In this document: piece after piece, positions 26,480 to 30,583 of the stretch
Position numbering within the stretch: position 1 is the stretch's first letter
How the letters are laid out: each line of letters starts with the position of its first letter
From: Tuwongella immobilis
GTDB taxonomy: Bacteria > Planctomycetota > Planctomycetia > Gemmatales > Gemmataceae
Assembly: GCF_901538355.1 (NCBI RefSeq)
Contig: NZ_LR593887.1
Coordinates: 1,712,920 to 1,776,919, forward strand
Reading direction: 5' to 3'
Length of the DNA stretch: 64,000 nucleotides
The notes under the pieces: generated by a model
Seen by the model: the letters and a program-made list of their open reading frames with translations, nothing else
Databases searched by the model: none
What the model was told of the DNA's origin: nothing
Position numbers and translations under genes: made by a program

Positions 26480-27445
26480 TCACTTGCTGACTTTGCCGGG
26501 GAATCGATGCCCGGCAATCGGCATGGCGATCGAGTAGACCGTTGTGCGTGCCGTCATGATGAGCGTTTTGCCGTCTTTGCCTCCGAATGTTACATTTGCC
26601 GGAATTTCCGGGACGGCGATGATTCCCAGTCGCTTCCCGGTCGGCGCGATGATCTGAATCCCCAAATCGCTGGTGATATACAGGTTGCCTTGTGTATCCA
26701 CAGTCAGACCGTCACCGCCGGAGTTGGTTTTCCCCATCGGTTGTTCGAGTGTGCAAAAGAGCTTGGCGGGTCCGAGTTTGCCCGGCGAAATGACTGGGTA
26801 ACTCATCATCGTCGATTGGCTACTCGGAATCACGTAAAGGGTTTGTTCATCGGGGGATAGGATAATTCCATTGGGATTCTTGAGATCATCGATCAGTCGG
26901 GTGATGGTCCCATTTTCAGCGCGGTAGTAGACGGCGGTTTTGCCTTGCGGCAACGGCTTGGGGCTGCCGTATTCCGGATCGGTGAAGTAAATTCCACCCG
27001 CGCGATCGAGCACCAAATCATTGGGGGCGTTGAGCCGCTGGCCTTGGTACGCATCGGCCAGCACCCGCCGAGATTTTCCATCGCGCGTCAGTGCGACGAG
27101 TGCCCCGTTCATTTCGCAGGCAAACAATTCGTCGCCCGGACCATCCATCAGGCCGTTGGCTTGATTCGATGGTTCTCGGAAGATGGTTTGTTTCCCGGTT
27201 GGATCGATTCGATGAATGCGTTGATTCGGAATATCGGTGAAATAAAGGTTTCCTTGGCGATCGACGGTCGGGCCTTCGGTGAAGCGAAAGCCTTTGGCGA
27301 GCACTTGCACGGGGCCAAGCGGTTTGACGCTGGGGTCGAAGTCGGTGGATTGCCCGGCGATTGGGCCGGTCGCCACGATCGCGAAGGTGAGGGAAACGAC
27401 TGCGAGGGAACAAAATTGCGAAGGCCGCATTCGTGGGGAGAGCAT
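26480..27445 (-). CDS. SMP-30/gluconolactonase-like exported lactonase
   Basis: 321 aa. GGAG lies 9 nt before the ATG. An N-terminal signal (AVVSLTFAIVATGPIAGQS) leads into a six-bladed propeller of the SMP-30/gluconolaconase/LRE family: TEGPTVDRQGNLYFTD, NGLMDGPGDELFACE, LNAPNDLVLDRAGGIYFTDP, NPNGIILSPDEQTLYVI, GGDGLTVDTQGNLYIT. The conserved Glu and Asn/Asp metal ligands are present in these blades. It probably hydrolyses a sugar lactone outside the cytoplasm. Two copies of a 174-nt structured repeat lie directly upstream on the same strand. Confidence 0.88.
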   Translation of the reverse strand: MLSPRMRPSQFCSLAVVSLTFAIVATGPIAGQSTDFDPSVKPLGPVQVLAKGFRFTEGPTVDRQGNLYFTDIPNQRIHRIDPTGKQTIFREPSNQANGLMDGPGDELFACEMNGALVALTRDGKSRRVLADAYQGQRLNAPNDLVLDRAGGIYFTDPEYGSPKPLPQGKTAVYYRAENGTITRLIDDLKNPNGIILSPDEQTLYVIPSSQSTMMSYPVISPGKLGPAKLFCTLEQPMGKTNSGGDGLTVDTQGNLYITSDLGIQIIAPTGKRLGIIAVPEIPANVTFGGKDGKTLIMTARTTVYSIAMPIAGHRFPGKVSK

Positions 27446-27510
27446 CGGTCAAATCTCCGAGAACCGAGGGATTCCAAGGAGATCACGATATGCGATGGTG
27501 GGGTGTTGCG

Positions 27511-27684
27511 AAATGAAAAAAAGTTGAGCCGGCGACAGGAAGAGGACGCTGCCAACCTCTCCAGTCAACCGGCTCAACAGATCCAAGGCATCGCCGATTC
27601 GTCGAACGCTGCCACACATCGACGAACCGTACAGCACTAAGATGCGCACCCCATCCCGAATATTGTCTCGCCCGTGAAAAAAAA
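27511..27684 (-). ncRNA. structured repeat copy A, candidate RNA/leader with intrinsic terminator
   Basis: 174 nt, 172 of them identical to copy B (27839-28012). Read on the minus strand it contains an internal stem (TTCGTCG/CGACGAA) and ends in a 10-bp perfect stem GTTGAGCCGG/CCGGCTCAAC (plus-strand arms 27569-27578 and 27523-27532), with an inner AGAGG/CCTCT stem, followed by seven U. That is an intrinsic-terminator geometry and sets the strand. It ends about 70 nt upstream of the SMP-30 start codon, so it could be a terminating leader of that gene or a free small RNA. No known family recognised. Confidence 0.55.
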
Positions 27685-27838
27685 TTCGAAATGCTGGGCA
27701 GCGGCCGAAACGAGGCCACAACCTCAGCGAATGACGATTCGTGGGGAGACGGTTCGGAATGCGACCAGCCGTGGTTTTGGTTGATGTTCGACGGATCGGA
27801 AGCGGAATGATCGGGAATTGATCGAAATAAGCAGGGGG

Positions 27839-28012
27839 AAATGGAAAAAAGTTGAGCCGGCGACAGGAAGAGGACGCTGCCAACCTCTCCAGTCAACCGG
27901 CTCAACAGATCCAAGGCATCGCCGATTCGTCGAACGCTGCCACACATCGACGAACCGTACAGCACTAAGATGCGCACCCCATCCCGGATATTGTCTCGCC
28001 CGTGAAAAAAAA
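27839..28012 (-). ncRNA. structured repeat copy B, candidate RNA with intrinsic terminator
   Basis: Second copy of the 174-nt element, offset by exactly 328 bp from copy A and separated from it by 154 bp of unrelated sequence. Terminal stem arms lie at 27851-27860 and 27897-27906, followed on the minus strand by six U. Differences from copy A are one base in the A-tract boundary and one internal transition. Both copies are bounded on both sides by A-runs on the plus strand. Similarity stops sharply at these runs. Confidence 0.55.
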
Positions 28013-28187
28013 CGAGAAGAAAAAAAGTTCCCAAAACAATGAGGAATCCGTGAAAAAAACACTTTCTTCGGACGAAATCATCAGGTATGGTTGCAGATGA
28101 TTGGTGTGAAACTCTCCATGTCTTTTTACACATCAATCACAATTTGATCTTTATCTCTTCGTTGAATGATCTGAGACAGGTGTTTTC

Positions 28188-28607
28188 ATGCGCACGATTG
28201 GCTTGTTGGGGGCGTTCGCAGCCATTCTCCTGTTGAGTGGTTGTGGAGACAGTGGTCCGAAACGATATCCAATCAAGGGTACGGTATCCTTTGATGGAAA
28301 ACCGTTGCCGAACGGCACCATTCGCTTTGAACCGGCTGGCAGCGAATCCTTTAGCGCGGAGTCTTCGATCGATGCTGGAAAGTATTCGATTGAGGCAATC
28401 GTCGGATTGGGCGTTGGTTCGTACAAGGTGATGATTTCGTCGGGCGATCCCAAGCAGATGGTCAAGCCAGGCGATGCACCCGGTATGGAAGGCATGCAAC
28501 CCGCGGCGAAGGACATCATCCCCGCCAAGTACAATCTGAAGTCGATGTTGACCGCCGAAGTGAAGGCTTCGGGCGACAACGTGTTCGATTTTACGTTGAC
28601 CAAGTAA
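28188..28607 (+). CDS. small lipoprotein paired with DUF1559
   Basis: 139 aa. Signal peptide with lipobox LLLSGC (Cys at about 19), so it is predicted to be lipid-anchored. The mature part begins with a transthyretin/carboxypeptidase-regulatory-like beta fold: YPIKGTVSFDGKPLPNGTIRF and AGKYSIEAIVGLGVGSYKVMI. This lipoprotein type commonly neighbours DUF1559 genes in planctomycetes. The DUF1559 gene starts 35 bp downstream. A related pair lies at 48.9-50.3 kb in the opposite gene order. Confidence 0.85.
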   Translation: MRTIGLLGAFAAILLLSGCGDSGPKRYPIKGTVSFDGKPLPNGTIRFEPAGSESFSAESSIDAGKYSIEAIVGLGVGSYKVMISSGDPKQMVKPGDAPGMEGMQPAAKDIIPAKYNLKSMLTAEVKASGDNVFDFTLTK

Positions 28608-28642: not shown

Positions 28643-29521
28643 ATGGCTAATGGAAATCGTCGGTCGGCGTTTACGCTGATCGAATTGCTCGTGGTAATCG
28701 CCATTATTGCGATTTTGATTGGTCTGTTGCTGCCGGCGGTGCAGAAGGTCCGCGAAGCGGCGGCCCGGATGCAGTGCCAAAACAACCTCAAGCAACTCGC
28801 GTTGGGGCAGCACAATTATCATGATGCCAACGGAAAATTCATTCCGGGGCTTGAATCCGGCAATTGCTGCTGGGGCACCTGGATGGTTCCCATTCTGCCG
28901 TACATCGAACAAGAAAACATGTTCCGATTGTATGTGAATTGGAATGGTCGAGGTACCGATGTGCGTTACTCGGGTGCGCCGAACACCACGAACGTGACGA
29001 CGCGCCGCATCAAGACGATGACCTGCCCCAGCGATACGGAAAATGCTCCGTTGGCTGGCATCACGTCGCACAACTACGCGGTGATGGTGGGACCGTCTGC
29101 GGTCTATTCTTCGGCTGGTGATGGGATTTTCGCGTTCACCCGCCAACGCAAGATGACCGACATTACCGATGGAACCTCTAACACGGTGATGATGGCCGAA
29201 GTGCTGCAAGGCCGAAACTCCGATTTGCGCGGGTTCACCTGGTGGGGCGATGCCTCGATGGTGTCGTCGCTGCAAACCCCGAACACCAGCGTCGCCGACC
29301 GAATTTACACCGCTGGCTATTGCAACTCGCAATTGCCGTTGCTGCCGTGTGCGGTCTCGGATTCGTCGAACCCGACCATCTTCTTCTCGCGCAGCCGTCA
29401 CACCGGTGGCGTCAATGCGGCGTTTGCGGATGGCTCGATCCGCTTCGTGTCGCAAAATATCGCCCTGAACAACTGGCGTGCCATGGGCACCAGCTCCGGC
29501 GGCGAAGTCATCACCGAATAA
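28643..29521 (+). CDS. DUF1559 pilin-like protein
   Basis: 292 aa. AAGGAG lies 7 nt before the ATG. The N-terminus is a type IV pilin/pseudopilin signal ([20 protein letters not shown]), followed by the family signature [20 protein letters not shown] and LKQLALGQHNYHDANG. Later come SDGTSNT-like (TDGTSNTVMMAE) and the C-terminal HTGGVNAAFADGSIRFVS motif. Family members are surface or pseudopilus-like proteins of unknown role, highly expanded in planctomycetes. Confidence 0.95.
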   Translation: MANGNRRSAFTLIELLVVIAIIAILIGLLLPAVQKVREAAARMQCQNNLKQLALGQHNYHDANGKFIPGLESGNCCWGTWMVPILPYIEQENMFRLYVNWNGRGTDVRYSGAPNTTNVTTRRIKTMTCPSDTENAPLAGITSHNYAVMVGPSAVYSSAGDGIFAFTRQRKMTDITDGTSNTVMMAEVLQGRNSDLRGFTWWGDASMVSSLQTPNTSVADRIYTAGYCNSQLPLLPCAVSDSSNPTIFFSRSRHTGGVNAAFADGSIRFVSQNIALNNWRAMGTSSGGEVITE

Positions 29522-29591: not shown

Positions 29592-29683
29592 CTGTTTCCA
29601 GTCGCTCGATACTTGCATTCGTGAAAATCTTGGCGATCATAGGGCAATCTCAGGCCGTTGACCCATCACAAAGGATGCCACGC

Positions 29684-30583
29684 ATGTCCTCGCTGCATCG
29701 ACGACAATTTCTGCAAACCTCGGCGGCATTGGCTTCGACTGCCCTGTTGGGGCCATCTCCGCTCGCCGTCTCCGCCGCCGATTCCGCCAAACCCGCAGCC
29801 GTGAAATATCGCCTGGGCATGGTGACGTACAACGTCTCGGCGACTTGGGATTTGGATACGGTTCTGCGGGTGGCCAAGTCGGTGGGGCTGGCGGCGGTGG
29901 AATACCGCACCACGCACAAGCACGGCGTTGAGCCGACGCTCAGCAAGGCCCAACGCAAGGAATTGAAGGCGAAATTTGCCGATTCGGGCGTGACCTTCTG
30001 GGGCTGCGGCAGCACCTGCGAATTCCACGCGGTTGATCCGAAGGTGGTCGCGAAAAATATCGAAACTTGCAAGCAATTTGTCGAATTGGTCGCGGATTTG
30101 GGTGGAACCGGGGTGAAGGTGCGGCCCAATGCGTTTCCCAAGGGGGTCTCGATGGACAAGACCCTGGAGCAGATTGGCAAATCGCTGATTCCGTGCGGCC
30201 AAGCGGCAGCGGATGCCGGGGTGGAAATTTGTGTCGAAGTGCACGGCCCAGGCACGTCGTATCCGCCGCATATGAAGACGATTCTAGAAATCGCCAATCA
30301 TCGGGCGGTGGGTATCACTTGGAATTCGAATCCGACCGACTTGATGGACGGCTCGATTGACAAGCCATTCGCCATGCTCAAGCCGTGGCTGAAGTCCTGC
30401 CATATCAACGACTTGGGCAGTAAGTACCCGTATGCGCGGCTGTTCCAATTGCTGGCCGATGCGGGCTATGACCGTTACACGATGATCGAGATTGGCAAGA
30501 CCTATCCGGATGTGGCCGAAGGTGAGGCGTTCTTGAAAGCGTACAAGCAAAAGTGGGAATCGCTGCTGCCCACGGCGTCCTGA
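29684..30583 (+). CDS. Tat-exported sugar phosphate isomerase/epimerase-like TIM barrel
   Basis: 299 aa from the ATG at 29684; AAAGGA lies 9 nt upstream. The N-terminus RRQFLQTSAALASTALLG is a twin-arginine signal. The body is an AP-endonuclease-2/xylose-isomerase-like TIM barrel: LGMVTYNVSATWDLDTVLRV, VGLAAVEYRTTHKHG, GVEICVEVHGPGTSYPP, AVGITWNSNPTDLMDG, LKSCHINDLGSKYPY and YTMIEIGKTYPD, with Glu/His residues placed as metal ligands. Substrate unknown; such exported isomerase-like proteins are common in planctomycetes. Confidence 0.87.
   Translation: MSSLHRRQFLQTSAALASTALLGPSPLAVSAADSAKPAAVKYRLGMVTYNVSATWDLDTVLRVAKSVGLAAVEYRTTHKHGVEPTLSKAQRKELKAKFADSGVTFWGCGSTCEFHAVDPKVVAKNIETCKQFVELVADLGGTGVKVRPNAFPKGVSMDKTLEQIGKSLIPCGQAAADAGVEICVEVHGPGTSYPPHMKTILEIANHRAVGITWNSNPTDLMDGSIDKPFAMLKPWLKSCHINDLGSKYPYARLFQLLADAGYDRYTMIEIGKTYPDVAEGEAFLKAYKQKWESLLPTAS

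Follow-up and report, generated by a model that had tools for sequence, protein, structure and literature searches.

The window, a 64,000-nucleotide stretch of the Tuwongella immobilis genome, carries two near-identical structured elements upstream of a gene for an SMP-30/gluconolactonase-like protein, on the strand of that gene. A preliminary description had noted this position, which was confirmed, and had proposed either tandem riboswitch-like leaders of the SMP-30 gene or a multicopy or mobile small RNA. The locus raises the question whether the elements serve the gene that follows them or are genes of their own.

Two copies of one unit in the window

The repeat search in the window located the pair at 27510-27684 and 27838-28012, two units of 175 nt that match at 173 of 175 positions (2 differences) and are separated by 153 nt. 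The earlier figures of 172 matches in 174 positions and a distance of 154 bp agree with these values within a base. A blastn search of the whole genome (6.69 Mb, one contig), suggested at that stage as a check for further copies, returned only the two known ones and no third copy at E <= 0.001. Both stems described before were present in each copy on the minus strand: the internal 8-bp stem TTCGTCGA/TCGACGAA and the 10-bp stem GTTGAGCCGG/CCGGCTCAAC, the latter followed by 6 or 7 T. The minus-strand fold of copy 2 had a free energy of -71.6 kcal/mol (z = -3.64, 0 of 200 shuffles equally stable). Folding energy alone does not pick the strand, because the plus-strand fold reached z = -3.42. The RNA was assigned to the minus strand because of the U-run, the upstream block and the loop conservation as read on this strand. 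The features of the locus are listed in Table 1.

Table 1 Features of the RNA locus in the window; both RNA copies are among the six training sequences of model R1, whose bit scores for them are given
Feature	Position	Strand	Evidence
RNA gene copy 1, promoter-like block to terminator	27841..27996	-	Covariance model R1, 131.2 bits
Copy 1 conserved block, ACAATA (27989-27994) to GCGCATC (27969-27975), CAATA-N13-GCGCATC	27969..27994	-	Sequence
Copy 1 hairpin 1, 8-bp stem, loop with UGGCAGCGU	27926..27954	-	Sequence, fold, covariation of helices 1-2
Copy 1 hairpin 2, intrinsic terminator, loop UUGGCAGCGU, with U-run	27845..27906	-	Covariation, fold
RNA gene copy 2	27513..27668	-	Covariance model R1, 132.4 bits
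Copy 2 conserved block, ACAATA (27661-27666) to GCGCATC (27641-27647)	27641..27666	-	Sequence
Copy 2 hairpin 1	27598..27626	-	Sequence, folds, covariation
Copy 2 hairpin 2, intrinsic terminator, loop UUGGCAGCGU, with U-run	27516..27578	-	Covariation, folds
Spacer between the copies	27685..27837	-	Local alignment
SMP-30/gluconolactonase-like gene, neighbour here, outside the conserved unit	26480..27445	-	PF08450, E 2.7e-44; tblastn
Small lipoprotein-like ORF, between RNA and TIM-barrel gene	28188..28607	+	ORF
DUF1559 pseudopilin-like gene, between RNA and TIM-barrel gene	28643..29521	+	ORF, Pfam
Xylose-isomerase-like TIM-barrel gene, TAT-type signal	29621..30583	+	Pfam, tblastn, start regions

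Conservation within the Gemmatales

Relatives of the RNA were obtained by comparing the region in blastn with 95 genomes from the family; weak matches recurred on the 3' hairpin. Six such loci were read and had a common layout. A covariance model (R1) of six sequences, the two of T. immobilis together with L007, L009, L021 and L022, matched 44 of the 95 family genomes at E <= 1, representing 20 of 39 genera. A second model (R2), made of 30 sequences and confined to the 3' hairpin, matched 47 of 102 genomes of the order at E <= 0.1. With a cut-off of E < 1e-5, 41 of the 102 genomes were accepted, the R2 E-values of training members holding by construction, although these members had first been found by R1 from its six seeds. 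The 41 genomes hold 42 RNAs, because among them only T. immobilis has two; one copy per genome is usual. At this cut-off the RNA was absent from 61 of the 102 genomes. Excluded were six genomes with E-values between 1e-4 and 0.1 (G008, G062, G071, G087, G089 and G094), of which G008 and G094 were judged false members on reading of the sequence. Two of the accepted genomes, G097 and G098, represent a second family of the order. Their RNAs (L092, L093) have an extra stretch in common, CCTTGCAGGGACAATCGGCAGGCGG, between the block and the 3' hairpin.

A class-wide scan of 397 genomes gave 50 genomes with E <= 0.01. Eight of them lay outside the order and were counted as false, because on reading the combination of the loop with the upstream block was missing. 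The pattern scan of named genomes yielded 115 stretches; among the 80 that were scored, 10 had E < 1e-6, and all 10 came from records named Gemmata, Fimbriiglobus, Gemmatales, Gemmataceae, Planctomycetia or Planctomycetota. Sixteen viral contigs contained the loop pattern, with a top model score of 27.1 bits and no convincing member, and plasmids gave no match.

Secondary structure and the invariant loop

Covariation in relatives, another check proposed in the preliminary description, was observed. In an alignment of 22 sequences, which leans towards the model because it was fitted to it, 24 of 29 pairs had changed on both sides and 93.9 % of the cells were paired; the covariation score was 0.433 versus 0.208 in shuffles, and none of 500 shuffles reached any of five measures. 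Sliding the structure along this alignment reduced pairing to 38-55 %. For the 3' hairpin in a plain MAFFT alignment of 30 sequences, the values were 13 of 16 pairs, 96.2 % paired and 0 of 500 shuffles. The secondary structure is strongly supported, and the contrary outcome named beforehand, scattered copies without covariation, did not occur.

The stem sequence varies freely and the loop of the 3' hairpin, UUGGCAGCG, is near-invariant. Ten columns of the 30-sequence alignment were invariant, one G of the stem and GGCAGCGTC. The loop core GGCAGCG was present in 41 of the 42 3' hairpins, the exception being L099 of genome G046 with AAGCAGCGC. A GGCAG at most 110 nt upstream of the 3' hairpin, which marks hairpin 1 with the same loop core, was found in 26 of 42 RNAs; the loops of hairpin 1 and hairpin 2 share nearly the same ten letters. 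All 42 accepted RNAs have the 3' hairpin, itself the search model, as intrinsic terminator, followed by a T-run of at least 4 in 34 and without it in 8 RNAs. The linker between the hairpins reads UGUGGGAGCGAC in many Gemmata-like genomes. In L055, L057, L059 and L099, hairpin 2 stands alone, directly after the block. In L100 and L101 (genomes G025 and G013) the 5' arm of hairpin 1 is joined to the 3' arm of hairpin 2 in a stem of 8 pairs with an intact loop, a form that appears to have arisen by deletion. Such reduced, single-hairpin forms reveal which part evolution keeps: judged from the sequences, it is the hairpin with its loop.

The upstream block

From 5' to 3', the unit consists of an A-tract, the block, hairpin 1, the linker, hairpin 2 and the U-run. 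The block, [C/T]AATA-N13-GCGCA[T/C]C, was present with fixed spacing in 36 of 42 RNAs; its start lies 22 to 188 nt upstream of the 3' hairpin. An A-tract precedes it in most RNAs, a T-tract in T. immobilis. Six RNAs lacked the block (L058, L062, L095, L096, L098 and L103). In L062, L096, L098 and L103 a regular expression detected a TTG-type -35/-10 pair in its place, which we read as a lineage-specific promoter exchange; L095 looked similar by eye. The tmRNA genes of the same genomes had TATAAT boxes in five of six cases within 80 nt upstream, and the block of the RNA in none. Two readings of the block as a promoter may be considered. If CAATAA acted as -10 element, the A-tract would lie near -35 and GCGCAUC at the 5' end of the RNA; if CAATAA acted as -35 element, GCGCATC would be the -10 element and the RNA would begin at the hairpins. 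Searches for the block in three genomes gave 11 matches. Four were the RNA genes of G000 (two), G012 (one) and G073 (one); the sequence around the remaining 7 looked coding or unrelated.

Gene neighbourhood and the role of the SMP-30 gene

Of 40 relatives, 25 have a homologue of the TIM-barrel gene in divergent orientation to the RNA; the remaining 15 loci include some short contigs. These homologues are 53-63 % identical to the protein of the window over most of its length. In the window the gene has the same direction as in the relatives, but the lipoprotein-like ORF and the DUF1559 gene intervene. The genes downstream of the RNA differ between loci; the RNA is free-standing and not bound to one downstream gene. 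Among 28 of the 40 relatives examined for it, an ORF convergent to the RNA and ending at most 50 nt from it was observed in 14 loci, a count of mechanically called ORFs, with a possibly wrong frame in at least L039 and L046. Pfam was searched with five of the convergent ORFs: two were ECF-type sigma factors, two were SnoaL-like and one had no match. In tblastn searches no SMP-30 gene was found beside the RNA in relatives; the protein of the window matched loci of its own genome only.

The convergent neighbours at L033, L036, L037, L043, L047, L051, L054, L055 and L057 are mutually homologous, and the two of them tested in Pfam were the ECF-type sigma factors, which carry a long extension at the C-terminus. 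That this sigma factor, the convergent neighbour in several genera, serves the RNA promoter was considered and is not supported: genomes G000, G073, G074 and G036 have the block and no match to the sigma factor at E <= 1e-30, and the family is rich in paralogues.

The divergent TIM-barrel gene and the convergent downstream ORFs characterize the RNA as a gene of its own, and because of them the SMP-30 gene has to be seen as a chance neighbour in this genome. Cis-acting tandem leaders of SMP-30, either riboswitch or attenuator, are therefore very improbable. The arrangement in the window suits them, with both RNAs on the SMP-30 strand and copy 2 ending about 70 nt before the SMP-30 start codon. 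However, SMP-30 was found beside the RNA only in T. immobilis, the next ORF runs towards the RNA in half of the examined loci, and neither the window nor 20 related loci had an Rfam match for the RNA. The other early proposal held in part: covariation and conservation in 40 relatives support a small RNA, but this RNA is not mobile, nor does it occur in many copies. The closeness and near-identity of the two copies could also suggest an inert or mobile repeat, a reading left with hardly any probability by the lack of a third copy in 6.69 Mb, the adjacency of the two, the usual single copy in relatives, the conserved synteny and the covariation. Improbable, too, is a mere terminator, possibly one that works in both directions between convergent genes, its loop being conserved for a protein, e.g., a termination factor. 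The 3' hairpin is indeed the universal part, and the hairpin model gives weak antisense matches; but conservation extends to hairpin 1, the linker and the rigid block upstream, and in 14 of 28 loci there is no convergent ORF close by.

Proposed function

Computation revealed a conserved RNA family with its structure, its terminator, an invariant loop and a rigid block, independent of the downstream gene. It is very probable that the RNA is an independent gene and likely that it regulates in trans; action in trans, like expression, is what we infer from these features. We propose that each copy forms a full transcription unit on the minus strand and encodes a free-standing small RNA. The unit would comprise a promoter-like block, a 5' hairpin that is optional and, at the 3' end, a hairpin that would both end transcription and display the loop UUGGCAGCG. 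The loop would be the active part and most likely pair with target mRNAs in trans, two hairpins providing two near-identical seeds. Pairing via the loop is proposed because nearly every lineage shares the loop and no other strongly invariant unpaired part, and because the stem varies freely and one hairpin suffices. Taken for itself, base-pairing through the loop has about even chances. The reading as a whole, a free-standing small regulatory RNA that acts via its hairpin loop, most likely by base-pairing, and is duplicated only in T. immobilis, is the one towards which we lean slightly.

The exact complement of the loop, ACGCTGCCAA, occurs 44 times in the T. immobilis genome versus 27 times for the reversed control; none of the 30 loci inspected among these 44 had an obvious match at a ribosome binding site. 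Complementarity of the loop to 16S rRNA was not unusual, with a longest match of 6 and a shuffled mean of 6.1-6.3. No conserved complement of the loop was found at the start of the TIM-barrel gene; the perfect complement at this place in L035 was not conserved, and those in L033 and L100 were, by position, the RNA gene itself on the opposite strand.

Almost as well as base-pairing, the data fit a protein-binding decoy or scaffold, in which the loop would be a protein recognition element and the RNA would titrate or carry the protein in the manner of CsrB. The near-invariant loop on a freely varying stem, the same core in both loops of one RNA, the absence of a detected target site and a duplication that would add sites in the window are all consistent with this reading. 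Still, we regard it as unlikely: multivalence is not required, because several genomes keep a single hairpin (e.g., G045, G048, G036 and G046), the loop has no GGA and hence is no CsrA site by sequence, and no partner protein is known. More tentative than base-pairing is a broader proposal, in which the RNA would be a riboregulator throughout the Gemmatales and would have a promoter class to itself (A-tract, [C/T]AATA-N13-GCGCA[T/C]C); its minimal functional form would be a single terminator hairpin with a loop reading one conserved mRNA, tRNA or protein partner.

Relation to known RNAs

At the gathering score, Rfam 15 had no match in the window, and 20 related loci yielded only one tRNA (L053). 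With lenient settings, Rfam returned four weak matches in the region, each scoring far below the cut-off of its family, and no described riboswitch matched the RNA. The RNA constitutes a new family, of a kind already known, probably the trans-encoded small RNA. Trans-encoded small RNAs that end in an intrinsic terminator are an established class in bacteria, and the RNA resembles them as a short intergenic gene with a promoter-like block, a terminator hairpin and a strongly conserved unpaired segment. Unlike in these RNAs, the conserved segment lies in the terminator loop, and no Rfam 15 family applies at the gathering score. The TwoAYGGAY RNA motif carries AYGGAY in the loops of two hairpins. 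The two hairpins with the same loop motif are a common trait, but the loop here is UUGGCAGCG instead of AYGGAY, and an Rfam match is missing. Sponge RNAs of the CsrB/RsmZ type also repeat one motif in hairpin loops; CsrB titrates CsrA, whose motif is GGA in exposed loops. In contrast, the present RNA has only one or two loops, and GGA is absent from the loop UUGGCAGCGU.

Gemmata and its relatives are known for an unusual cell architecture. The RNA is conserved across the order, also in records named Gemmata, and provides an exact loop for mutagenesis and a defined block upstream for mapping; small-RNA regulation in the Gemmatales therefore becomes directly testable. The literature searched, as far as its texts were accessible, contained no report of this RNA or of another small RNA of Gemmata or relatives, and two large surveys of bacterial ncRNAs do not mention planctomycetes in their main text. 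A candidate structured RNA of Planctomycetes and Proteobacteria, the Rhodopirellula-1 motif, has been described (PMC2864571). It was compared by its description, and the window has no Rfam match at the gathering score.

Duplication in T. immobilis

Both copies contain the block, the two hairpins and the terminator, therefore the whole gene was doubled. The duplication would have occurred head to tail and would provide four loops in total. The 12 nt that open both copies, CCGTGAAAAAAA, were found a third time just upstream of copy 1 (28048-28059, minus strand), where the rest of the unit is absent. Within the spacer, positions 27696-27757 are weakly similar to the start of the SMP-30 gene (27391-27448), with an alignment score of 40 and 13 identical nucleotides in a row. 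None of 1000 mononucleotide shuffles and none of 1923 other stretches of the window reached this score; 18 of 3000 dinucleotide shuffles did. The similarity is suggestive only; the stretch is perhaps a decayed remnant of the duplication. If so, the spacer would have decayed and the RNAs would still be 99 % identical, a difference that would speak for gene conversion or selection.
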